Positions 1 through 25,258 of a stretch of DNA of 40,537 nt are shown in pieces. Numbering within the stretch: position 1 is the stretch's first letter; every line of letters starts with the position of its first letter. The translations under genes and the position numbers were made by a program. The notes beneath the pieces are model-generated. The model was not told where the DNA came from. It did not search any database and worked only from the letters and a program-made list of their open reading frames with translations. The DNA lies in NCBI GenBank assembly GCA_012519905.1, contig JAAYPG010000052.1, positions 1 to 40,537 on the forward strand. The letters are read 5' to 3'. This DNA is from Clostridiales bacterium (lineage in GTDB: Bacteria > Bacillota > Clostridia > Lachnospirales > Lachnospiraceae).

Positions 1-1378
1 CATACACATCCCAGATAAATAGAGGTCCCATATCAAGGCCACCGATGAATTGTGAATAATCGTTATTCTCAACAGCTTCATCAAACATCATTGTAAGTGT
101 TTCATCTACAGCTCTCTCATCACGGAACTTAGTATAATAACTATCTTTCCATGCATCTGAATCTTCATATCCAGGAACTGGATCTGTCCATAGGTTATAA
201 GCGAAAGCAATTTTTTCTGCTGTTTCTTTATCATAACTTGAAGGAATTACACCAACGTTGTCAGAGAAGTAAGCTGCATATTTATTGCCACCCTTAGGTC
301 CCTTAGGGAATAATACAAATCCAAAATCGTCTTCCATGGATGCTAAAGCTTGACCAGAGTTATACTCCTCAGCTACTCTTATAGCAACCTTACCATCATT
401 AAATGCAGGTCCAAACCAATCCCAGTTTGAATCTGGAGGTGCTGGCATCTCATAGCCTTTTTCGATCAAGCCAACAGCCCACTGAATTGCCTCAAGGAAG
501 TTAGGATCTGTAATTCCGCTATAGTATTTGCCATCAGCGTCTTTACCAACATATCTTGCATCATTAGAAGTTATAGCACCTCTAAATAGGTCTACTGAGA
601 AGCTTACTGTAGCATATTGATCAGTGATACCATCGCTATTAGTATCTCTGGTTAAAGTGTTACATACGTCTTCAAATGCTTCCCATGTCCACTCACCACT
701 TGCCTGTAAGTTATATAGGTGATCAGGATCTAAACCAGCTTCCTGGAATAATCTCTTGTTCCAGAATACACCAAGCTTAGGCTCAGGTTTTCCAGCATTC
801 ATACCATATATGGAATCTCCATATGTAGTTGCTTCTGTAACGTTCTTAATCCATTTGCTCTCTGAAAAATCTAAGCTATCAAGAGTTGCTAAGTCATATA
901 CAAGACCGTTAGCTATAGGAGCTACTGCCCAACCTGGAGCAAGTAAGAAAATCTGAGCAGCAGGATCTTCTGCTACTGTTGAAGTAGTGAATAATTCTTG
1001 CATGCCGCCCCAGTCAGTAATTGCCACTTGCTTCATTGTGAAATTGTATTTCTCTTGAATCATTTCACGGTACTCCTGCTGTGCTTCCTGGAAAGCATTA
1101 GTAGGAGCGGGAGTTTCTTGTGGTGACCACCAGTCACCAATGATGATTTCCATGCCACCAAGATCTACTGTAGGCTCTTCTTCTACAGGATCTTCTTCTA
1201 CTGGCTCATCTTCAACAACATCCTGCTTGTCATCATCTTTAACATCTTCTACAACAGGATTGTCAACTTCGTTGCCCTTACCCTCATCGTCGTCTTTCTT
1301 TCCGCATGCAGCAAGCATAGTAAAGCTTAAAGCTAATACAGAAAGAAGTACAAGCAACGTTTTAATATTTCTTTTCAT
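1..1378 (-). CDS. ABC transporter extracellular solute-binding lipoprotein (C-terminus beyond window edge)
   Basis: Open reverse frame from ATG at 1378 to the window edge: MKRNIKTLLVLLSVLALSFTMLAACGKKDDD... (lipobox LAAC), acidic linker, then SBP-like sequence (EAGLDPDHLYNLQASGEWTWEAFEDVCNTL). RBS GGAGGAAAGG just upstream. Missing from ORF track because its stop is outside the window. Confidence 0.9.
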   Translation of the reverse strand, partial: MKRNIKTLLVLLSVLALSFTMLAACGKKDDDEGKGNEVDNPVVEDVKDDDKQDVVEDEPVEEDPVEEEPTVDLGGMEIIIGDWWSPQETPAPTNAFQEAQQEYREMIQEKYNFTMKQVAITDWGGMQELFTTSTVAEDPAAQIFLLAPGWAVAPIANGLVYDLATLDSLDFSESKWIKNVTEATTYGDSIYGMNAGKPEPKLGVFWNKRLFQEAGLDPDHLYNLQASGEWTWEAFEDVCNTLTRDTNSDGITDQYATVSFSVDLFRGAITSNDARYVGKDADGKYYSGITDPNFLEAIQWAVGLIEKGYEMPAPPDSNWDWFGPAFNDGKVAIRVAEEYNSGQALASMEDDFGFVLFPKGPKGGNKYAAYFSDNVGVIPSSYDKETAEKIAFAYNLWTDPVPGYEDSDAWKDSYYTKFRDERAVDETLTMMFDEAVENNDYSQFIGGLDMGPLFIWDVY

Positions 1379-1440
1379 ATCCTTTCCTCCTATTTCTTAA
1401 TATTATTTATAGTAAAGTGTATAACACTTTCTATACATGA

Positions 1441-2439
1441 TTACATTTTGATACCTGTCTGGCTTAAGCTTTCTACAAAAGCCCTCTGAGATACTATGTA
1501 TATAAGTAATAAAGGTATTATGGCCATGATCATACCTGTTGATATCATCATCTGCCCATAAGCAATGGATGCCCTAACTCCGCCTCCAATACCATTGAGA
1601 TAATCACCTAGTAACTGCGATATAGCAGTTAGCTTTCTAGATAGAAGTGATATATCACCTAAGAACATAGTTGAGAAAAACGAGTCTGTCCACTGCCACA
1701 CAAAGGCAAATAGAAAACAGGATGTAATTATGGGCTTGGCATCAGGTAACATTATTCTTATAAATGTAGCAAAGTTTCCACAGCCATCTACATAAGCCGC
1801 CTCTTCTAATTCCTTAGGTACTCCTCTATAATACTGCCTTATCAAGAAGATGTATAAACCACCTTTTAAGCCCATCGAGGTAAGACTCATAAACATATAT
1901 GGTAAAGGAGATTTTAGAAGGTTTATGGTTTGCCCCGTAAAGAACTCAACAATTCCAAATATATCAAAAAATCTAAAGTTCAAATATAAAGATGAAAGAA
2001 TTGTCTGTGGTGGCACAAGGATAACTAATATCACACAAGCGAACCAAAATTTCTTTAAGGGGAAGTTGAATCTGGCAAAGCCATATCCAACAACCGTAGC
2101 CGATGCAACCTGCAAAACACTTATAATTACTGAAAAAATCAGTGAATTGCGTAAGGATTTCCAATAATCTATAAGGTAACTAACCAATTTATAGTTCTCT
2201 GTTGTAAAATTTCTAGGTACAACTATAATTGTTGGGTCATACAAATCCTTCTCTAACATAAAGCTCATAGATACCTTATTTAGTAGCGGTTGTATTATTA
2301 GAAAACATACACCGAATAGCAATGCAGCTCTCAGAAAAGAATATATTTTACTGGTTATAGTTTTCTTTAGTAAATAGCCTCCTGATTGCTTATTCCTATA
2401 GATAGCCAATTTCCACTTATCTCGAATTCGTTTATTCAT
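1441..2439 (-). CDS. Carbohydrate ABC transporter permease (MalG/UgpE-like)
   Basis: Multi-TM protein with EAAYVDGCGNFATFIRIMLPDAKP (EAA loop). ATG at 2439 (MNKRIRDKWK) preferred over the longer 2481 start. Confidence 0.88.
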   Translation of the reverse strand: MNKRIRDKWKLAIYRNKQSGGYLLKKTITSKIYSFLRAALLFGVCFLIIQPLLNKVSMSFMLEKDLYDPTIIVVPRNFTTENYKLVSYLIDYWKSLRNSLIFSVIISVLQVASATVVGYGFARFNFPLKKFWFACVILVILVPPQTILSSLYLNFRFFDIFGIVEFFTGQTINLLKSPLPYMFMSLTSMGLKGGLYIFLIRQYYRGVPKELEEAAYVDGCGNFATFIRIMLPDAKPIITSCFLFAFVWQWTDSFFSTMFLGDISLLSRKLTAISQLLGDYLNGIGGGVRASIAYGQMMISTGMIMAIIPLLLIYIVSQRAFVESLSQTGIKM

Positions 2440-3337
2440 AATAATACACCCACCTTGAAGTAATTGCAGAGAACACAGCAATAATCACTATAACAGCTAG
2501 GAAATAAACCCATGCCATGGCTGAACTAAAGCCATAATCCAATCTTATCATGTTTGTACGAATCTTTTCCATAACCTCACTATCGGTTCTCATAAAGAAG
2601 TCAATTATCGTGTAAATTACATTTACTAAAATAACTGAACTAACCATTGGTAATGTAATCTTCCAGAAGCTCTCCCATGCTGAACAGCCTTCTATCTTTG
2701 CTGCTTCGTACATGCTCTTTGGTATAGACTGAAGTCCGGATAGGAAAATAATTATCTGAATACCTGATGATAATACAACTTCGTACACGGAGTTTAGAAC
2801 CTCATATACAGTCTCTAAAAACCTTGAACTCATTCCGCTATTGGATAAGATTTCTTGTAAACTGGCAGTAATATCTACAACATTGGAGTTCTCTTGAATA
2901 TAGCTCTTCATTCCATCTAGCATACTATTGTTAAACTCAAGCCCTACTAGAACACCTGATGAAAGTATTACCGGTAGAAAAAACACAGCTCGAACTAGTC
3001 CTCTTCCCTTAAACTTTTGATTTAAAAGCAAGGCCATTATGAAACTAACAATTAGAACTGCAGGAACATTGATTGCCATTCTAGAAATCTCTTCTGTCAT
3101 CATTCTGTTAAACTCTGGATCCTCAGTAAATGCTCTAATAAAATTTCTAAAGCCTATATTCTCCAGTACAAAACCTTTATTACCAGTGGATATAATTACA
3201 TTGCTGAAGCTCATCCGAAATGATTCCAGGAGGGGAACAGCCATAAATGAGATAAAACCTATTATAAAAGGAAGTATATACAAATATCCAACTATCGCTC
3301 TCTTTTTTCGCAGGTTTTTCTGCTTATTCTTAGCCAT
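2432..3337 (-). CDS. Sugar ABC transporter permease (MalF/UgpA-like)
   Basis: N-terminal YLYILPFIIGFISFMAVPLLESFRMSF and EAA loop YEAAKIEGCSAWESFWKITLPM; overlaps the next permease by 8 nt. Confidence 0.88.
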   Translation of the reverse strand: MAKNKQKNLRKKRAIVGYLYILPFIIGFISFMAVPLLESFRMSFSNVIISTGNKGFVLENIGFRNFIRAFTEDPEFNRMMTEEISRMAINVPAVLIVSFIMALLLNQKFKGRGLVRAVFFLPVILSSGVLVGLEFNNSMLDGMKSYIQENSNVVDITASLQEILSNSGMSSRFLETVYEVLNSVYEVVLSSGIQIIIFLSGLQSIPKSMYEAAKIEGCSAWESFWKITLPMVSSVILVNVIYTIIDFFMRTDSEVMEKIRTNMIRLDYGFSSAMAWVYFLAVIVIIAVFSAITSRWVYYYE

Positions 3338-3339
3338 TT

Positions 3340-5865
3340 TTACCTCCTTTCCACTAGATAATCATTGGCAGGAATAGTTATATCGCCAGTGATAAAGTCA
3401 AAGTTATTATAATTAACAAATACTTTGGTTCCATCTTCATAAGTAGACACCACAACACCCTTATCAATAATCTCATGGTCTATCAGGTACTGATCAAATG
3501 TATGTCCTAACTCATTCTCGTATCTACTATAAATATTATAAGCCTCTTCTTTCCACAGGTTATAATCTGTACCAAAAAAGTATGTGTAGTTAGAATTCTG
3601 CAGATAACTTGTCGGCTTATTCATAAAGACAAATGATAATCCGGCTCCGTTTTCTGCACTTCTTAGTATCTCAGCTTGAAAATCTCCTGATAAATTAATT
3701 GGATTACCTGAGTAATTTACTAAGCCGTGTATAGCCATGGTATAGAATGGTACTGAATGATCGATAATATGATACTCTCTTCCTTTCAGCTCCAAACCTA
3801 CCACAAAATCCACATAAGGAAGTACATAATCATTTCCATGATTCACAACCACACCCGCACCGGAGGAATTTATGTCATTTAGTTTATCCTGCTGCATCTT
3901 AAGAACTTCACTTCTTGTGATAAGATTCTTTTGATAATAATCTGCAGCTAACAGATATCCTATATCAGAAAATGCGACTCCAGCTGCTGAGTATTTATTG
4001 GCATAGTCGGTTAGATTTTGCATGTACTGGATAGTTAATTGTGGCTTTAGCAGATAGAAATGGTCCTTCCAATCCTCTATACCGTAGTATATAGGTGAAA
4101 AGTTATAAAGCTTAATAACTTCTCTACTGCTATATCTTGCACTATCTCTTTTGATTATAAATCCGTCAAACATATTACTATCATGAGCATGCATTACGAC
4201 ACCTTCTAGATATAAAGGTATACCAAGCTCATTGCTACGATCAATAAATTTATGTAATTTCTTTTTGCTACCTAGCTCAGAAACTGTTTTTACTTTGTTT
4301 AGAACCTGCTGCTTAACACCCTTATTCATCCAACCACTGTATCTTATAGAAAGATTTTCATAGCCTTTTTCACTTAATTCAGTAATAATATTATAGGCAT
4401 CATCATAGGTTGTAAGTGGAGTTGGTACTGATACAGGCATTCCAAAGCGTTGTTTTACTTGGTCAACAGCACCTATAAAGGTAATATTTATCGGTGTGCT
4501 CTTATCATCATTTTTAGTCAGATTAGCATTTTTTATAAGATAATCTCTGTAGGAGCTAGCCATATCGGTATAGCTTGAACTTTCTAGAAATCTATAACGC
4601 TGCTTTAGCACTCCTTCTGGCTTCTTAGCTTCATAAACCATAACTGATTTATCTGTTTTTGCTGATACCTGAACTGATGCAGAATGCAGTGTTATATAAG
4701 CAGCATGTACATAATTGTAACTATGGGTTCTACCACTTACATCAGCTTCTATAGATGCAACTGCCTTACCATCCTCTAATATACATATAAGGGAATTGTC
4801 GTTCTTAGATATCCCAAAGACTGGGTAGGCCGCTCTACTTTCATCTATTACTGCATCTCTCTTAAGTCCACCGTCCCAACCATACATTTCAGTATAATAG
4901 GGAATCTGTTTGTTCTTACCATTATTAAAATTAATTATTCCACCATTACCATCAGGAACTAAAGCAAAACCTTCATCCTCTGTATTTCCAGCGCCAAGAT
5001 AAGGTAATAACTTAACCTTAGTTAGGGGATAGAGGCTTTTCCACTGCATATCCTCGAAAGGAACTTCAACTACAAGCTCTCCGTCCTCTAATCTATATAC
5101 GACTGACACATTGAAGTATGGTTTTTCAGCCGCCTTACCTTGCTCATATCTTGCTTTATCTTCCTCTAGATCCTCAAGTGTATATCCTACATCAGCGAAT
5201 ATACCTTCTATTCTTCTTTTAAGATAATCCTGAGCCCCTTCTCTCAGCTCATAAACAGGCTCATCTACAAGATCAGGATATTTTTCAATTAATTCATTCT
5301 TATTATCCGTCGGTCTTAGCTTATTCAGGTCTATCTTTCGGTAATAATCAACTACAGATCTTCTCTGCTTGTTCTCCATTCTATCCAAGAATATATTCAT
5401 TCTAGATTCTGGTATAGCATTTGGAATGTTAAAAGTCTTCTCAACATCTCCTATTGTATAGTTTACTTTAATTGAATCCTCATTCTGTTCAACTGTATAT
5501 ATGTTTTTTGATATACTATACTCAAAATTATTATATAGTGTTGTCATACCAGCTTCATTTGAGAACTCAATTAGCATCGTAGACTGTAGATACTTTTTAC
5601 TTTCTGGATCTGCATAAGGATCATTAGCAGCATCTATCGGATTAGAATACCATGTTGAATTATTTGCTTTATTTAAGACTTCAAAATATGTTGTACTTGG
5701 ATCTAAAGTGAATTTTAGCTTTTCATCCTCTAAGACAAAGGCTTCATCACTTTCTTCATAAGCATAAGTTGCTATAATCTCTTCCTGTTCCTCTTCTTTC
5801 TTACAGGCTGCTAAAAGCAGAACCATTAAGAGGAATAGGCTTAATTTTTTTATTTTAATCATCAC
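3340..5865 (-). CDS. DUF5696-like lipoprotein, possible surface glycoside hydrolase
   Basis: 841 aa; lipobox LLLAACKKEE; beta-rich N-terminus, central TIM-barrel-like region (ENLSIRYSGWMNKG, GIPLYLEGVVMHAHDS, GVAFSDIGYLL, GVVVNHGNDYVLPYVDF), C-terminal beta domain. Family recalled from similar SBP/permease neighbourhoods. Confidence 0.7.
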   Translation of the reverse strand: MMIKIKKLSLFLLMVLLLAACKKEEEQEEIIATYAYEESDEAFVLEDEKLKFTLDPSTTYFEVLNKANNSTWYSNPIDAANDPYADPESKKYLQSTMLIEFSNEAGMTTLYNNFEYSISKNIYTVEQNEDSIKVNYTIGDVEKTFNIPNAIPESRMNIFLDRMENKQRRSVVDYYRKIDLNKLRPTDNKNELIEKYPDLVDEPVYELREGAQDYLKRRIEGIFADVGYTLEDLEEDKARYEQGKAAEKPYFNVSVVYRLEDGELVVEVPFEDMQWKSLYPLTKVKLLPYLGAGNTEDEGFALVPDGNGGIINFNNGKNKQIPYYTEMYGWDGGLKRDAVIDESRAAYPVFGISKNDNSLICILEDGKAVASIEADVSGRTHSYNYVHAAYITLHSASVQVSAKTDKSVMVYEAKKPEGVLKQRYRFLESSSYTDMASSYRDYLIKNANLTKNDDKSTPINITFIGAVDQVKQRFGMPVSVPTPLTTYDDAYNIITELSEKGYENLSIRYSGWMNKGVKQQVLNKVKTVSELGSKKKLHKFIDRSNELGIPLYLEGVVMHAHDSNMFDGFIIKRDSARYSSREVIKLYNFSPIYYGIEDWKDHFYLLKPQLTIQYMQNLTDYANKYSAAGVAFSDIGYLLAADYYQKNLITRSEVLKMQQDKLNDINSSGAGVVVNHGNDYVLPYVDFVVGLELKGREYHIIDHSVPFYTMAIHGLVNYSGNPINLSGDFQAEILRSAENGAGLSFVFMNKPTSYLQNSNYTYFFGTDYNLWKEEAYNIYSRYENELGHTFDQYLIDHEIIDKGVVVSTYEDGTKVFVNYNNFDFITGDITIPANDYLVERR

Positions 5866-5877
5866 TAATCCTCCTTA

Positions 5878-6555
5878 TTAGTAGAAGCGGAAACTTATTT
5901 CTTTGTACAACGATACAAAATATGCTATAGCATCAGATATTAGGGTGAAGAATAGAAGTAACATAAATATAATCACCATCATACCTACTATCGTTGCAAA
6001 CAAGGTTACTAAAGCTTTACTTAATGTATAGTCATGTATCATCATAACCGCACTAATAATTAGGGCTCCGCACCAAATATATGAAAAGTAATATAGAAAA
6101 CCGTAAAATGCACCTTCTTCAACAGTTATTACATTACTGATAAATATCATTGGTAGCTGTAAAAGAACATATGGAGTCAATGAATATCCAATGGCCATAT
6201 ATATGTCCTTCATTGTACCCTTACCATCAAACAAAGTGGTAAGTCCCCAGTTAGCTATACAACCTATAATAATAGGAGCTAAAAATCCTAGGATTATCTC
6301 TATTAAGTTCACAAATTCCCATATAACATTAACAAACAGGAAGCTAGAAAATTGTAATCTTAGTATATTAGTGAGTAAGGCAGCCACTATTATTACATTG
6401 GCAGCTCCTACTGATCCTCGCTTCTCATGAGTTAAATCCCAGAATCCATCCATTGGATGGGTAATCACATATAAGGAGTAACGAAGAGTGGTACCTAAGT
6501 GTCGCAATTTATTAAGCCTATTCTCAGAAATCCACTTCGATGATTTCACTTTCAT
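5878..6555 (-). CDS. YIP1-family integral membrane protein
   Basis: 225 aa; N-terminal YVITHPMDGFWDLTHEKRGS followed by about five hydrophobic segments; overlaps the upstream gene by 4 nt. Confidence 0.7.
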   Translation of the reverse strand: MKVKSSKWISENRLNKLRHLGTTLRYSLYVITHPMDGFWDLTHEKRGSVGAANVIIVAALLTNILRLQFSSFLFVNVIWEFVNLIEIILGFLAPIIIGCIANWGLTTLFDGKGTMKDIYMAIGYSLTPYVLLQLPMIFISNVITVEEGAFYGFLYYFSYIWCGALIISAVMMIHDYTLSKALVTLFATIVGMMVIIFMLLLFFTLISDAIAYFVSLYKEISFRFY

Positions 6556-8033
6556 TCTACACCCACCTCTCTCCTTATCTTTTTAATCTTACCTATTACA
6601 ATAGGCACTGTAATAATCAAAAAGAATGATGTAAAAATCCATGCTATATTTTCTTCAATCCATTCCTTACGATATAATTGGAAAGCTTTAGAATAGTTCA
6701 TTCTATCTAGAGCAAATTCAAAATATTCCATAGCCTCTTTATATCTTTCCTGTCTTAGTAAAGAACGACCAATACCTATGTAGGCCATATCATAATTACC
6801 ATTAAGCCTTAATACTTCTCTCCAATAATCTGCTGATAAATCATATTGACCTAGGGAGTAAGCCTTAATAGCATCATTAATTAATTTGCCATATTCGGTT
6901 AATGTATAAAATGTTATTCCTAAATTACGTGAATCCAGCACCAGTAAGTCAGTGCCCATATGTTCAAGAGCTGTAGGAAACTGTTGATATCCCAGCTTAT
7001 TACCTAGGCTACCGAAGGCATATAATAAATTACCTTGATCATCATAGCCGAATATCCTACCTCTGGTTCTGTCTATGGCATAATAAATATCATTGTCTAA
7101 TACCGTAATATCAATAAGCCTTGAGCTTCCAGACACACCACCTGCAGTATCCCACCATTGATCTCCTATCGGTGGAAGATATCCATTCTTAACCAATATG
7201 TCTGTACCCATTGAATTTAATTTACGAATGGGCTTTGCCTCATCATTACGCAATTGATACTCCTCAAATATTGCGTTTGTGGCATATAAAAACCCGTCCT
7301 TATCCATAGCTACATTATTATACTCAGTCGGAACAAACTGGGCCATTTGAGATTTTTGCTTTTGGGTGGATAGAAGCTTCCATATATAGTCAGTCAGATT
7401 GAACCTAACCTCACTGGCTCCCATATATCCGATGAACAAGCCATCCCTATCGTACTGCAGATAACCCTTATTGAAGTTTCTAGCAAGTACAAAGCATCTT
7501 CCAGCCTTATCTGCAACTAATTTGGTTGGTAAAAAATCCGCCGCCTTATCAACGGTTTCATCAGTAGGGCGAGTAATTACTTTAATTAACTTATAATCTG
7601 AGCTTAGGTGTAGAACCCTTTGGTTGTTAGTATCTGCAATATATAATTCACCTGTCTCAGTAACGAAGATATCATGTGGTTGTGAAAATGTATTAAGCTC
7701 TACATCTCCGCTAAATTCATAAATTTGATCTATTACTTCAATATTATTATTCCCATCTCTTTCAAGTACTACTATCCTGTGATTTCCTGTATCACATACA
7801 TAGATACGATTATCTCTTACATAGAGTCCTTGGGGATTATTGAAATCACCGATACCAAGCTTTGATCCTGTTACGGTTTCCTGTACACTATAGGCATCTG
7901 GTGATTCTCTTTCTACTTCCCAGTAATCATAAGTGTATGTATAAACCGATCTTTCAGCCTTTACAGTTGCAGACGGAAACAGTATTAAAGCTACGAAAAA
8001 GAAAATAATGGGTATAAACTTTTTTCCTCTCAT
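6552..8033 (-). CDS. Secreted/membrane-anchored NHL-repeat protein with TPR-like region and C-terminal TM helix
   Basis: Signal peptide; NHL motifs NPQGLYVRDNRIYVCDTGNHRIVVLE and QPHDIFVTETGELYIADTNNQRVLHL; TPR-like YMAYIGIGRSLLRQERYKEAMEYFEFAL region; C-terminal hydrophobic helix. Confidence 0.75.
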   Translation of the reverse strand: MRGKKFIPIIFFFVALILFPSATVKAERSVYTYTYDYWEVERESPDAYSVQETVTGSKLGIGDFNNPQGLYVRDNRIYVCDTGNHRIVVLERDGNNNIEVIDQIYEFSGDVELNTFSQPHDIFVTETGELYIADTNNQRVLHLSSDYKLIKVITRPTDETVDKAADFLPTKLVADKAGRCFVLARNFNKGYLQYDRDGLFIGYMGASEVRFNLTDYIWKLLSTQKQKSQMAQFVPTEYNNVAMDKDGFLYATNAIFEEYQLRNDEAKPIRKLNSMGTDILVKNGYLPPIGDQWWDTAGGVSGSSRLIDITVLDNDIYYAIDRTRGRIFGYDDQGNLLYAFGSLGNKLGYQQFPTALEHMGTDLLVLDSRNLGITFYTLTEYGKLINDAIKAYSLGQYDLSADYWREVLRLNGNYDMAYIGIGRSLLRQERYKEAMEYFEFALDRMNYSKAFQLYRKEWIEENIAWIFTSFFLIITVPIVIGKIKKIRREVGVE

Positions 8034-8043
8034 TGTTTCCTCC

Positions 8044-8925
8044 TCAATCTTTTATACCAGAGCTTGCCATAGTCTCTAGAATATTACTTTCTGCTACAAT
8101 AAATACCGTAATCGGAACTATCATCATTACTAAGGATACCGCTGATCCTACTCCTGCTCTAGCTATACCTCCACTAAGTATCTGTTGAAGGGCATAGGGC
8201 AGAGTCTTTAATTCTTCAGAATATATAAAGTTTGATGCCTTTGTATTCCACAAGCCTTGAACAGAGAAAATCATTAGTGTTAGCCAGGCAGGCTTAACTA
8301 CTGGTAAGACGATTCTACTAAATATTCTCCATTCCCTGGCACCGTCTATTTTAGCCGCTTCTATGAGCACATCTGGTATACCCTCCATGTATTGCTTCAT
8401 TAGGAACAATCCCATGGGAGATGCAAAGGCAGGAACAATAATTGCCCAATATGTATCAACCCATCCTATCTTTGACATAATCAAGTAATTGGGTATTGCA
8501 GTTACATAGCCACTAAACATTAATGCTACTACAACTAAGTTAAAGAATGCTCTGCTACCTGGGAAATTGTACTTTGCTAATACATATGCACCCATCGAAG
8601 ATATTATCAAATGCCCTGCAGTACCTACTGCCGTTATAAATACTGTATTAAACAAATACCTTGTAAATGGCACCCATGATTTACCCATTATAACTAGTAA
8701 ATCCTGAAAGTTATCCATGGTTGGGTTTTTAACAAATAGTCTAGGCGGATAGATAAATATCTCATCCAAAGGCTTGAAAGCACTGTTTATAGCATAAACT
8801 AATGGGAAGGCCATAAATACGCCAAAAAATATCAATATGAAATTTACTCCCAAATCTCCCGTTAAGGAGCGGTTTGGTTTACTTCGTCTAATGCGCAACT
8901 TCTTCTTCATCGCTATCTTCTCCAT
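8044..8925 (-). CDS. Carbohydrate ABC transporter permease (MalG-like)
   Basis: EAA loop IEAAKIDGAREWRIFSRIVLPVVKPAWLTL; six TM-type hydrophobicity. Confidence 0.9.
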   Translation of the reverse strand: MEKIAMKKKLRIRRSKPNRSLTGDLGVNFILIFFGVFMAFPLVYAINSAFKPLDEIFIYPPRLFVKNPTMDNFQDLLVIMGKSWVPFTRYLFNTVFITAVGTAGHLIISSMGAYVLAKYNFPGSRAFFNLVVVALMFSGYVTAIPNYLIMSKIGWVDTYWAIIVPAFASPMGLFLMKQYMEGIPDVLIEAAKIDGAREWRIFSRIVLPVVKPAWLTLMIFSVQGLWNTKASNFIYSEELKTLPYALQQILSGGIARAGVGSAVSLVMMIVPITVFIVAESNILETMASSGIKD

Positions 8926-8935
8926 ATCATCTACC

Positions 8936-9871
8936 TCAAGTTCCTACTCGGCGCAAGAATGCCTGGATTACCTTATTGCATAAAATCATAGTAACGAACA
9001 GAATTGTTGCTATAGCTGCCGCATAACCCATTTCAAATCTTACAGAGCCATAATCAATCAAGTGTGTTACAACCGTCTGGGTCGCATAGTCCGTACTCGG
9101 GAAGCCTGTCAGAGCCATCGGAACATCAGCAACACCAAATGACTGTGTGATTGTCATAACTGCACCGAATAATAACATTGGTTTCATATTAGGTAAGGTA
9201 ATATACCATAATTCCTGCCAGCGATTTTTTATACCATCAATATATCCTGCCTCATATTGAGACTTATCAATACCTTGCAGTCCGGCTACGAAGGCTAAGA
9301 AGCCTGTACCCAGACTCATCCACAATGTAACTATAATAACTATAGTCAACATATACTGCGGATTAGTTAGCCATAATATGGGCTGGCTTATAATTCCCAG
9401 ATTTAGCAAGAAGGCATTTATGTATCCGTATGCATCTCCAGAGAATATAATTGACCATATTAGGTAAACCTGACCCGATATAGTCGGGGCATAGAATATT
9501 ACAACTGCAAAGGCTTTTAAATATCTAGGTAACTCATTTATGAACCAGGCAAATATAAATGCTGCTAAGTAACCAATCGGTCCCGTTATCACCGCTATTA
9601 GGAATGTATTCTTTACAGCGATTAGAAACACATCATCAGCAAGTATTAAATTTATATAGTTTTGAATACCTATAAACTTTGGCGGTTCCAATACATTATA
9701 ATATGTAAAACTTAAGAACAAGGAAGCGACTACTGGTAAAACATAAAATAGAAAAAACAAAGAAGCATATGGAGCTAGGAAGTAATAATATGTCTTTGAT
9801 TTTTTTGCTATCTTCCATGAAATAGACGCATTTCTTTTCTTTATTTCAATGTAGCGTTTTAATACTGACAT
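8936..9871 (-). CDS. Sugar ABC transporter permease (MalF/UgpA-like)
   Basis: EAA loop YEAGYIDGIKNRWQELWYITLPNMKPMLLF. ATG at 9871 (MSVLKRYIEIK) has RBS AGGAGGG; the ORF-track start 9907 overlaps the upstream gene. Confidence 0.87.
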   Translation of the reverse strand: MSVLKRYIEIKKRNASISWKIAKKSKTYYYFLAPYASLFFLFYVLPVVASLFLSFTYYNVLEPPKFIGIQNYINLILADDVFLIAVKNTFLIAVITGPIGYLAAFIFAWFINELPRYLKAFAVVIFYAPTISGQVYLIWSIIFSGDAYGYINAFLLNLGIISQPILWLTNPQYMLTIVIIVTLWMSLGTGFLAFVAGLQGIDKSQYEAGYIDGIKNRWQELWYITLPNMKPMLLFGAVMTITQSFGVADVPMALTGFPSTDYATQTVVTHLIDYGSVRFEMGYAAAIATILFVTMILCNKVIQAFLRRVGT

Positions 9872-9887
9872 CTCTTTATCCCTCCTA

Positions 9888-12797
9888 TCATTTATCATCA
9901 AGTCCAAATTCTATGCGTTTCTTCTCTATCTCTTCATTAATTGTTCTTCCATAATCTAATAAGGTTTCTCGGGTATCCTCGTTCCTATTAATGGTCCTTC
10001 TAATAGCATTGGTTATGTGTCTTCCGGTAAAGTAACCTCCGGCAACCTCTTTTAGACCTACTGTCCAATCCCATTGTTCTTCTAGTACAGCAATTTGGCT
10101 ACTACTCCAAGACAAGCGCTTAAAGGCATCCTTATTAGCTGTTGCGTACCTAGCTGATGCTCCCAGGATACTTTCCATCTCTTGGCCAAAACGTACCTGA
10201 GTATCAGCACTAACCCACCATTTTAAGAACTCCCAAGATTTTTGTTTAATATCTTCCCTCTCCTGTTTAAACATCATGGAGCCAGTAACTGATGTATGAG
10301 CAGATCTATCAATTGTTCCATCTTCCTTCAGAGTGCCTGGAATTAATGTAAAGTCCCATAAACCTCTAATCTCAGGGGCAAATACAACCAATGTATTAAA
10401 TACATAGAAATCCTGAATACCTAAAGGCATCTCACCGGATCTAAATCTGTTCGGAAAATCATAAATCGTAGGCAACTTATACTGTGTAAACAGATGAGTA
10501 AATGAATCAAATGCCTTAATGCCGCTCTCCTCATCAATTAATGTATGGGTGCCCTCTTCATTGTATACTGAACCACCATTTTGATATAGCATAGCAAAGA
10601 AGGTGGACAGGTCAGGATTAGATACACCATTTATCAATCTATCAGTAGAAGGTATGGCAACCTGCATATTTTTTTGCTGTATTATAGGTAAAATATTAAT
10701 TAAGTCATCCCAGGTCTGCGGAATCTCTAAGCCAAGCTCCTCCATAATATCTGTACGATAGAACATAACATTAAAGTTCTGGGTCTCTGGTAGAGCATAA
10801 AGTCCACCTTCGAATTTGAATGACTCATATGAGCTTGGATAAAATTCTTCTAGAACCTTTTCATATCCATCAAACTGCGTTAAATCTTCTACCGCACTAC
10901 GTAATGCGTAATTGACAGGCTCTCCCTGTCCCGCTGACAAGACTACATCTGGTCCGGTCCCTGCTAGAACTGCATTAAGTAGAGTGGCTGGCTCAACCAG
11001 TTTCAGATTTACTTTTATATTTGTATTAGGTGTAAATGTATCATCTATCATTGTCTTTAAGACAGTACTTTGATCACGACCAGTTAATATCCACACATCG
11101 ATGGCTTCGTCCTTATCATATACATCGCCTAGGGCATTGTAATCAACCACAAAGGATGCAGCAAAGGATTTAATCTCATGAACAAACTTGTCTATTGCAC
11201 TTTCCTTAACTTCGTCCGGCTTTTCATTGATACCTGTTATAGTTATATAATCGACATCTAATGGAGCCTCACTGAATAAGAGAATAGAAGTTCCAAAAGC
11301 ACTTATATTTTCTTTAAATCTTGTAAATGCTACAGGTATCTTGTCTGGCTTATCAACAAACGTCTCCAGCTGTTCTGCCAAGGTAATTAAAGCCCCCAGC
11401 TGTTCCGCCTTTTGTCCTGTGATACTAACAACGTCATCAATAATTTTGAACAGTCTTTTGCTTTCTATATCCATGGCCTCTATTACTTCCGGATATACAT
11501 CTTGAATTCTATAATCCCTGTATCTATCCGGGTTAGTACCTGTAAGGACCAATATCTTTCTATAGATTTCATTTAATCTATAAACGGAGTCCTGCATATC
11601 ATTTAGAACTAATCCCAAATCACCCAAAGTTACTTCCATTCTTAAGGTGTGCTCACCCTTTGTTAGATAGAATTTATAGGGATTATTCTCTTCATCTGAT
11701 AGAGTAATTGACTCCCATTTATTATTATACTTAAATCCTAATTCCTTAACTTCTCTAAAAGGTATTTCTCCGTCAATATAAAGGGTTCTTGTAGATTTAA
11801 AACCTCTTTGATAATTTTGCCTACCCTTTATAGTTATATTGTAAAACCCATCCTCTGGCACATTAAATTCCCATTCAATCCACTGTCCTGGAATTCTCCA
11901 CGCATTACCCCCTATCATGTTTAGACGAATCTGGGATACGCTGTAAGGTACAGTATTGGAAGATGATCTATCATATAGTGCATATAGCGAAGGTGAAGAT
12001 CGTTGGGATGAATGCTCCCCTTGCACAAGCTCCTTATGATTTAACGCCAACTCCGAAACCTGCTGATCGGGTTTATCATTTAGATACTCTTCATAAGTAG
12101 GAGTTTCCTTAATAGCTTCTAATGTAATACTCTTAATCACTACGGGCTCATTAACTGCTTCTAATGCAATAGTATTCTTTCCTTCATTAAAATAAAAGTA
12201 ATATGGTTCTGTATAATAACCTAAATCATCTTTAAAGTAAGCTCTGATCCAATCTGGCTTATCTATCTGTGTAGGACGAATTTCGTTTCCTTGATTATCC
12301 TGCTTAACTTCATTTTTGTCGATCCATAACCTAGTGAAGCTTAGAGCCTCAGCTCCTATAAAGGGAAGATCATTATTAATGAGTAATTTTCTTTCTATAT
12401 CTACTCCTCTAGATTTTACCGCATAGTAGTCCATATACATCTGATACATTCCAGCTTGAGGAACCTCTACTTCCCATTCAATATATGACGAATCTGATGT
12501 ATAGACAACATCCGACACACCCTCAAACTCCGGGTAGCTCTCAACCTGATCTCCAGCCACAAAGGTGGACGCATGAATCTCAATATTATTTTCAGGGAAA
12601 GTCGAATCTGAATATTTCTCTAGATATTTTGCATATGTATTCTCACGACCAATACCTTCAATATCTTTATGTAAATCTGTTACTCCTTCATATTTCTCAC
12701 TATAGTCCTTAGTTTTACCCCTAGGTAAGAACACAATTATTAATATGATTACAAGTACTAGCAGTATTCCTATTATTATCTTCTTATTCTTTTTCAC
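9888..12797 (-). CDS. Membrane-anchored extracellular solute-binding protein with tandem carbohydrate-binding-like N-terminal domains
   Basis: 969 aa; N-terminal TM anchor IIIGILLVLVIILIIVFLP; two CBM-like units (SYIEWEVEVPQAGMYQMYMDYYAV... and QWIEWEFNVPEDGFYNITIKGRQNY...); C-terminal SBP (ALRSAVEDLTQFDGYEKVLEEFYP, FNVMFYRTDIMEELGLEIPQTWDDLINIL). Confidence 0.85.
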   Translation of the reverse strand: MKKNKKIIIGILLVLVIILIIVFLPRGKTKDYSEKYEGVTDLHKDIEGIGRENTYAKYLEKYSDSTFPENNIEIHASTFVAGDQVESYPEFEGVSDVVYTSDSSYIEWEVEVPQAGMYQMYMDYYAVKSRGVDIERKLLINNDLPFIGAEALSFTRLWIDKNEVKQDNQGNEIRPTQIDKPDWIRAYFKDDLGYYTEPYYFYFNEGKNTIALEAVNEPVVIKSITLEAIKETPTYEEYLNDKPDQQVSELALNHKELVQGEHSSQRSSPSLYALYDRSSSNTVPYSVSQIRLNMIGGNAWRIPGQWIEWEFNVPEDGFYNITIKGRQNYQRGFKSTRTLYIDGEIPFREVKELGFKYNNKWESITLSDEENNPYKFYLTKGEHTLRMEVTLGDLGLVLNDMQDSVYRLNEIYRKILVLTGTNPDRYRDYRIQDVYPEVIEAMDIESKRLFKIIDDVVSITGQKAEQLGALITLAEQLETFVDKPDKIPVAFTRFKENISAFGTSILLFSEAPLDVDYITITGINEKPDEVKESAIDKFVHEIKSFAASFVVDYNALGDVYDKDEAIDVWILTGRDQSTVLKTMIDDTFTPNTNIKVNLKLVEPATLLNAVLAGTGPDVVLSAGQGEPVNYALRSAVEDLTQFDGYEKVLEEFYPSSYESFKFEGGLYALPETQNFNVMFYRTDIMEELGLEIPQTWDDLINILPIIQQKNMQVAIPSTDRLINGVSNPDLSTFFAMLYQNGGSVYNEEGTHTLIDEESGIKAFDSFTHLFTQYKLPTIYDFPNRFRSGEMPLGIQDFYVFNTLVVFAPEIRGLWDFTLIPGTLKEDGTIDRSAHTSVTGSMMFKQEREDIKQKSWEFLKWWVSADTQVRFGQEMESILGASARYATANKDAFKRLSWSSSQIAVLEEQWDWTVGLKEVAGGYFTGRHITNAIRRTINRNEDTRETLLDYGRTINEEIEKKRIEFGLDDK

Positions 12798-12938: not shown

Positions 12939-12967
12939 ATTCTATCTAAATATATCAAATATGTCAA
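12939..12967 (-). promoter_or_regulatory. SigA-type promoter for the SBP/permease operon
   Basis: Reverse strand TTGACA (12962-12967), 17-nt spacer, TAGAAT (12939-12944). Confidence 0.6.
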
Positions 12968-23920: not shown

Positions 23921-25258
23921 CTAGTCTATCTTTCCTGCCAGATAGTTGATAAATTGTTGGGCGGTACGTCCTGACAAGCCTCCATGATAGAGTTCCCATT
24001 TTCTTGCCTCGGTATAAAGTTCCTCTTCAGAAGCAAAATCTATACCCTGCCTTAATGCTAATTGTTTTACAATCTCCAGATACTCCTTATGAGAAGGCGA
24101 AGAGAAGTTAATTGTAATTCCGAATCTTTCTACCAAGGATAGCTTCTCTTCCATGGTATCTGAACGATGAATATCACCATCTGTCTCCATGTCACTTCTG
24201 TCATTCCAGGTCTCCCTTATGAGATGCCTGCGATTAGATGTGGCATAGATTAGCACATTGTCGGGCTTATTCTCAAGACCACCCTCAATAACTGCCTTCA
24301 AATATTTATATTCTATTTCAAATTCCTCAAAGGATAAATCATCCATATATATTACAAACTTATAATTTCTGTTTTTTATAAGCGAAATAACAGCGGACAA
24401 ATCCTCAAATTGGTGCTTATAGATTTCAATCATACGAAGCCCCTTGTCATAATATTCATTGAGGATTGCCTTAACTGATGTGGATTTTCCTGTGCCACTA
24501 TCGCCGAACAAAAGCACATTGTTTGCTTTTTTCCCTTCAACAAAGGCCCTAGTATTATCTATAAGCTTCTTTTTTTGCAACTCATAGCCAATTAGATCTG
24601 ATAACCTAACCTCCAAGGTATTGGTAATAGGAAGAAGCTCAAGCTTCCCCCTCTCTCTGGATAAACGAAAGGCTTTATTTAGTCCTAATTTGCCCACACC
24701 ATAAACCTTGTAAAAATCAGTTACAATAGTGAAAACCTCATCCTCATCCTTGGCAGAGGCTATCTTGGTGCTTAGAATCCTAACCTTCTCGCTAACACTC
24801 TTATTATATTTTCCCTTATTTTTTTCAATAGCCTTATAATCAGAGATAATGGAAAAGCAATCAATTCCAAGCTCATGTTCAATACTAGTAAAATCATAGT
24901 GAAAGAGGTCTAGGAATATTTTAAAATCCGCTTTTGCAAACCGATTAACAGTTCCCTCTCTTGCACCTACCTTCTCACAGGTTATTGTAAAAGGATTCTC
25001 CATGCTTGCCAATGTATAGGCCAGATAATTCTGCCATAGGTTCTGGTCAAAGCCATAGATAGTAGCTATATCCAAAAGCTCATTGATTAGTGTATATATC
25101 CTGGATACTAGATTTGTTCTAGTCATCCAGTCTTTATCATTATCCTTCTCTGACTCCTTAAGACAATCATAATCTAAGATTATCTCAGATAGCTTTACAA
25201 GCAGGTTATCTTCCTCAAAATTCTTATATACTGATAATTTTGAAACAAAACGATACAT
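23921..25258 (-). CDS. DUF815-type AAA ATPase
   Basis: Walker [78 protein letters not shown]. Confidence 0.9.

Follow-up and report, generated by a model that had tools for sequence, protein, structure and literature searches.

What function is served by nine tightly packed genes in which two sets of solute-binding protein (SBP) and permeases surround three non-transporter proteins? The genes occupy one end of a 40,537-nucleotide stretch from Clostridiales bacterium, a member of the Lachnospiraceae (GCA_012519905.1, contig JAAYPG010000052.1), and this whole contig (C109, positions 1-40537, part of a 2.59 Mb assembly) is the window of the present analysis. Nine minus-strand open reading frames (ORFs), which overlap slightly or lie no more than 62 bp apart, run from position 12797 down to 2 in the order CBM-SBP, PermA, PermB, NHL, YIP1, DUF5696, PermC, PermD and SBP2, where CBM denotes a carbohydrate-binding module. 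They match the Pfam families SBP_bac_1/8, BPD_transp_1 (four times), NHL with TPR, Yip1 and DUF5696, confirming the co-directional array and gene order given in an earlier note on this DNA. The cassette probably represents a conserved uptake operon for hemicellulose oligosaccharides, with the window copy serving (arabino)xylan fragments and with DUF5696 as a receptor held by NHL-YIP1 at PermC/PermD.

The first evidence for a functional cassette is its conservation. Loci were drawn from DUF5696 profile matches in 61 genomes, from a pattern-based contig scan that yielded 80 named loci and from a phylum-wide sample, then fetched with their flanks and annotated using profiles built from the cassette. 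The full nine-gene order was dominant among the 90 loci with enough flank, and the same order was found in the independent phylum-wide sample. The hosts are plant-fibre degraders of gut and soil and include Lachnospiraceae, other Clostridia, Treponema (including horse-faeces and rumen samples) and Paenibacillus, and some genomes carry several paralogues. Some 100 loci show this arrangement, which puts the array far outside what chance would produce. CBM-SBP was present in 100/103 loci, PermA in 97/103, PermB in 94/103, NHL in 100/103 and YIP1, alone or fused, in 99/103; PermC was present in 108/110, PermD in 107/110 and SBP2 in 91/110 (83%), and every family except SBP2 occurs in 91-98% of loci. 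Apparent gene gaps in L084, L087 and L092 look like antisense-ORF calling errors, and the figure for SBP2 represents a minimum, given an unrecognised candidate SBP in L065. This candidate (L065:5438-6988, after PermD) is a 516-aa protein with no Pfam match that by eye resembles a divergent solute-binding lipoprotein.

The linkage is also found in the reverse direction, with 72 of 81 strong NHL-protein matches in the 61 genomes lying 1.0-1.6 kb from DUF5696 and the other nine at contig edges. Free-standing copies of NHL or DUF5696 were considered and rejected, the copies inspected having sat at contig ends. NHL and YIP1 form one polypeptide in 21/120 loci, a fusion confirmed by Pfam in L058. 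The neighbourhood survey anchored on DUF5696 that the earlier note had proposed, covering YIP1, NHL and both permease pairs, thus found conserved linkage, and the claim that the locus is unlike a simple sugar importer holds for a conserved carbohydrate-import locus linked in both directions. It is very improbable that the array consists of two independent ordinary importers whose accessory genes are merely co-regulated and do unrelated envelope work: each half does contain a complete SBP/permease set, and SBP2 lies upstream in Paenibacillus and was not found in some loci, but the linkage of NHL/YIP1 with DUF5696 and PermC/PermD is near-exclusive in both directions over several phyla, and the NHL-YIP1 fusion argues for a functional unit.

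Reduced loci indicate to which importer the accessory genes belong. In three loci of the phylum sample (L207, L209 and L214), NHL-YIP1, DUF5696, PermC and PermD occur without the CBM-SBP/PermA/PermB half, which was likewise not seen in L208 and L213, where contig ends cut both loci. SBP2 is kept in four of these five loci, and GH106, GH29, GH42, apiosidase-like or GH5 genes (GH, glycoside hydrolase) lie nearby. Since the reduced loci retain the accessory genes together with PermC/PermD, NHL, YIP1 and DUF5696 belong with the second importer, and the CBM-SBP/PermA/PermB importer is a frequent partner of this second-importer unit. The earlier description of two complete sets sharing three proteins is too strong in view of these reduced lineages.

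Both permease pairs are MalF/MalG-like according to Pfam and NCBIfam, and each of the four permeases retains an intact ATPase-coupling EAA loop, on which ground degeneration of PermC/PermD was rejected. The genome encodes one OB_MalK-bearing (MalK-type) ATPase on another contig (C146), which is presumed to pair with these permeases. Both halves accordingly have the components of a CUT1-type importer, namely a permease pair with EAA loop, an SBP and a genomic MalK/MsmX-type ATPase, with the incomplete SBP2 assigned as a sugar-binding protein by Pfam. SBP2 does have the lipobox and SBP_bac_1 match of the lipoprotein SBP named as ninth gene in the earlier note, although the gene is cut at the contig start, leaving 459 aa compared with 499 aa in its closest homologue. 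The binding and import of a glycan proposed in that note are supported, but, both pairs being ATP-binding cassette (ABC) importers of the ordinary MalF/MalG type, the glycan more probably enters as oligosaccharides than as a polymer. Its "surface" complex needs care, as the cassette is also present in Treponema, which is diderm and would hold it at the inner membrane; the proposed complex would therefore be a cytoplasmic-membrane one.

The intact loops of PermC/PermD also bear on the proposal that NHL-TPR, YIP1, DUF5696 and PermC/PermD form a glycan or flux sensor controlling the locus, leaving CBM-SBP/PermA/PermB as the real importer. The combination of propeller, TPR and membrane segment is like that of a signalling scaffold, and many relatives have an AraC or LacI regulator alongside. 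This proposal is nonetheless quite unlikely, as the coupling loops are intact, no kinase or cytoplasmic output domain was seen in these proteins, and lineages without CBM-SBP/PermA/PermB keep NHL-YIP1, DUF5696, PermC, PermD and SBP2 beside glycoside hydrolases, which marks that half as a self-sufficient importer.

The first protein of the array is an SBP of unusual build. Its AlphaFold2 (AF2) model (predicted local distance difference test, pLDDT, 88.5) has an anchor helix at the N terminus, two beta-sandwiches (roughly 72-227 and 255-390), a bundle of helices and, at the C terminus, an SBP that resembles Lin1841, Tlet_1705 and MalE3 (Foldseek/HMMER). The window copy is anchored to the membrane through its N terminus, and no lipobox was found in it. 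Weak CBM35 matches were found in 11/41 and CBM6 matches in 5/41 family members, both below cut-off in the window protein; "CBM-fused SBP" is thus right in kind, given two modelled beta-sandwiches, whereas the assignment to CBM35 or CBM6 comes from weak matches in a minority of the family.

The DUF5696 protein has the fold of a glycosidase. Its AF2 model (pLDDT 90) gave as top Foldseek matches in the PDB 5opq (DagB, E=1e-33) and 5wzn (NagBb, E=7e-25), followed by GH101 and GH36, with a TM(target) of 0.68-0.73 to the GH129 structures. In common with the GH129/DagB (ZgGH129) alpha-glycosidases (NagBb 5wzn, 5opq), it has an N-terminal beta-sandwich, a TIM barrel and a C-terminal Ig-like fold, and remote homology extends along the length of the sequence, a 60-member DUF5696 profile matching DagB (5opq/8rzk) at E=3.5e-13 and NagBb (5wzn) at E=1.6e-4. 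Unlike GH129 enzymes, DUF5696 proteins lack the aspartate/glutamate pair in 110/118 cases, are mostly lipoproteins or membrane-anchored and are encoded in a transporter operon, and the window protein remained unmatched by PF11308 (Glyco_hydro_129) at E up to 0.1. No GH129 homologues were found in 250 genomes of the phylum or in 10 cassette-bearing genomes, and no DagB relatives in the plasmid collection.

Residues were matched by profile-profile alignment, not structural superposition, and the mapping covered the NagBb pair, with the DagB catalytic residues D202/D486/E517/E531 outside it. NagBb E478 (acid/base), which we take to be the second catalytic residue and whose invariance is consistent with that role, aligns with N675 of the window protein. 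The position of the catalytic D435 of NagBb (PMC5698469) falls on F632-S633, adjacent to D634, in an alignment that is uncertain by 1-2 residues. Both carboxylates are kept in 8/118 DUF5696 proteins and neither in 22/118, compared with both in all of the 19 Paenibacillaceae GH129 proteins used as a catalytic control; the acid/base position is occupied by N, S, Q, T and others in most members. As acids at both sites are rare in DUF5696 and present in 19/19 GH129 proteins, the inherited catalytic pair was lost in most lineages, including that of the window. DUF5696 is probably a non-catalytic, glycan-binding pseudo-glycosidase, judging from sequence comparison. The trimming of glycans that the earlier note had ascribed to the complex is not supported for DUF5696, a remote GH129-fold homologue without the acid/base residue in the window and most relatives; it is presumably performed by neighbouring GH10, GH43, GH67 and GH3 enzymes.

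It is unlikely, though less so than the sensor, that DUF5696 represents a new family of active glycosidases, trimming side chains off oligosaccharides before import by means of other carboxylates, such as D634 with D331, D702 or E738. Its closest solved relatives, with the GH129/DagB fold, are all enzymes, D634 near the nucleophile position is kept in 81/118, conservation reaches about 95-98% at D331, D702 and E738, and the second catalytic residue of DagB differs from that of NagBb (PMC5698469), so the fold tolerates changes. Against this stand the replaced acid/base residue and the rarity of the complete pair described above, the dedicated xylanases and mannanases already encoded beside the cassette, and the company that DUF5696 keeps with xylan, mannan and other glycoside hydrolases, which is hard to square with one linkage specificity. 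A divergent DUF5696 clade (L071-L073) keeps the acid/base glutamate and not the aspartate; its loci carry a LacI regulator and a conserved 1062-aa protein without a Pfam match, and L073 also has a GH16 enzyme.

The neighbouring enzymes suggest what is imported. GH43-CBM6 and/or GH10 genes accompany the cassettes most closely related to that of the window (L052, L057, L061, L063 and L064), and others in its clade have GH10-GH3-GH67-UxuA with an AraC regulator. In another clade, GH26, GH130 and a CBM65-repeat protein adjoin the cassette, and Treponema cassettes are accompanied by GH5/GH130 and acetyl-esterase genes. The GH26/GH130 clade, labelled mannan, includes L034 (C19:9000-28500), a second full cassette of the source genome, with a DUF5696 protein about 26% identical to that of the window. 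Labels for xylan (GH10/43/67/3) and mannan (GH26/5/130) require 2 changes on the DUF5696 tree, compared with at least 12 in 1000 shuffles, and the window cassette lies inside the xylan clade. As both types are found within single genomes, such as the one carrying the window cassette and L034, the split cannot be put down to organism phylogeny alone.

For the window itself, the relevant enzyme appears to lie across a contig gap. Contig C176 of the source genome has at its end a partial GH10 gene that shares 86% identity with the GH10 adjoining the cassette of L052; the same HlyD genes as at L052 and an FtsX permease come next, a synteny that suggests continuity between C176 and the window. The location of transporter genes beside substrate-matched glycoside hydrolases, by which Gram-positive polysaccharide utilisation loci are recognised, is thus seen in the relatives, and in the window only via this syntenic contig end. 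The substrate of the window cassette is predicted to be xylan-derived. After its GH10 fragment, C176 (L235:6051-13914) encodes three HlyD-type proteins, a 948-aa FtsX/MacB-like permease and two ABC ATPases; this set, also found in part at L052 and L057, reads as an exporter beside a sugar importer.

In the uptake operon favoured here, secreted xylanases and arabinofuranosidases would cut the polymer into oligosaccharides, and the membrane-tethered CBM-SBP would capture fragments and pass them to PermA/PermB while the SBP2 lipoprotein supplied PermC/PermD. A single MalK/MsmX-type ATPase, whose gene lies on another contig, would power both pairs, and transport would be inward. These capture and import steps are proposed because they follow established ABC importer biology (compare Anaerocellum bescii, PMC12838199). 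On the external side of the membrane, DUF5696 may act as a non-catalytic glycan receptor that concentrates or orients glycan at PermC/PermD, with NHL-TPR and YIP1 as one membrane unit holding it there. Several observations weigh against this reading. The parts are not all obligatory, the CBM-SBP half being missing from a few loci and a recognisable SBP2 from about 10; YIP1/NHL could be sensors rather than a scaffold; D634 lies near the nucleophile position in an uncertain alignment, and the conserved D331, D702 and E738 might support another kind of catalysis; roughly half of the loci have no diagnostic glycoside hydrolase within the flank; and the xylan assignment of the window, and with it the actual sugar, is drawn from relatives and from a contig that is physically separate from the window. 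A more integrated ABC import machine, in which the GH129-derived pseudo-glycosidase receptor serves PermC/PermD on an NHL-YIP1 scaffold that is also physically coupled to the CBM-SBP importer, is possible but doubtful.

Features of the array in the window, with predicted promoter
Feature	Coordinates	Strand	Description
CBM-SBP	9888..12797	-	Membrane-anchored; two beta-sandwich (CBM35/6-like) domains, helical bundle, C-terminal sugar SBP; Pfam SBP_bac_8/1
PermA	8936..9907	-	MalF/GlcT-type permease; BPD_transp_1; NCBIfam GlcT/UgpA-like; EAA loop EAGYIDG...ITLP
PermB	8044..8925	-	MalG/UgpE-type permease; BPD_transp_1; EAA loop EAAKIDGAREWRIFSRIVLP
NHL protein	6552..8033	-	NHL beta-propeller repeats, TPR and C-terminal transmembrane segment; Pfam NHL, TPR; alignment
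YIP1 protein	5878..6555	-	Multi-pass membrane protein, YIP1 family; Pfam Yip1 E=1e-12
DUF5696 lipoprotein	3340..5865	-	GH129/DagB fold; Pfam DUF5696 E=8e-190; lipobox LLAAC
PermC	2432..3337	-	MalF/UgpA-type permease; BPD_transp_1; EAA loop EAAKIEGCSAWESFWKITLP
PermD	1441..2481	-	MalG-type permease; BPD_transp_1; EAA loop EAAYVDGCGNFATFIRIMLP
SBP2	2..1378	-	Sugar solute-binding lipoprotein; SBP_bac_1 E=6e-12; lipobox MLAAC; 3' end lost at contig start
Predicted sigma-70 promoter	12939..12967	-	TTGACA-17-TAGAAT; 11/12 consensus match; consensus match only

The predicted near-consensus promoter lies about 140 bp upstream of CBM-SBP, and no RNA elements were found in the window by Rfam. The upstream neighbour of the array is queA, and its downstream side lies beyond the contig. 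The sampled rest of the window holds mostly housekeeping genes, and a DUF815 family ATPase at 23921-25258 adjoins argS in such a housekeeping context.

The component families are known, and the cassette as a unit was not found described. It is analogous in idea to the Bacteroidetes SusC/SusD systems, in which a glycan-binding lipoprotein stands beside a membrane transporter with matched enzymes, but it has ABC permeases instead of a TonB-dependent or outer-membrane component and no SusD homology; none of the nine cassette proteins has a Pfam match to a TonB-dependent transporter or SusD. To our knowledge, the DUF5696/NHL/YIP1 core does not occur in the AXH clusters of Bifidobacterium pseudocatenulatum. 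Like the cassette loci, those clusters combine an ABC importer with GH43-type enzymes (PMC7688211). Athe_0595-0598 of A. bescii, a CUT1-type oligosaccharide ABC importer with a shared MsmX/MsmK ATPase (PMC12838199), resembles the cassette in having an SBP and a MalF/MalG-type pair without an ATPase gene of its own, two SBPs per cluster and plant-fibre oligosaccharides as substrates; the cassette differs in its two permease pairs per operon, its tethered CBM-carrying SBP and its NHL, YIP1 and DUF5696 proteins, none of which is described for the A. bescii type of importer. What is new relative to known Gram-positive arabinoxylan loci is a fixed set of nine genes that occurs as paralogues, each matched to its substrate. 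In an open library of 5.4 million papers, with subscription papers and CAZy updates outside the scope, no description was found of the cassette, its linkage exclusive in both directions, the fusion of NHL with YIP1, the reading of DUF5696 as a pseudo-glycosidase or the substrate-split tree.

Among fibre-degrading Lachnospiraceae, and likewise in Treponema and Paenibacillus, the cassette is common, and its three non-transporter proteins had no assigned role. If the proposed reading is correct, it would give a function to DUF5696 and its bacterial YIP1 and NHL partners, would make the hemicellulose preference of uncultured gut bacteria predictable from a single gene tree, and would raise the question of why a retired glycosidase stayed beside an importer. 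Under the more integrated but doubtful reading, a single chassis would have been duplicated and adapted to different plant glycans, xylan and mannan among them, giving Gram-positive bacteria and spirochaetes a SusCD-like solution at their cytoplasmic membrane.

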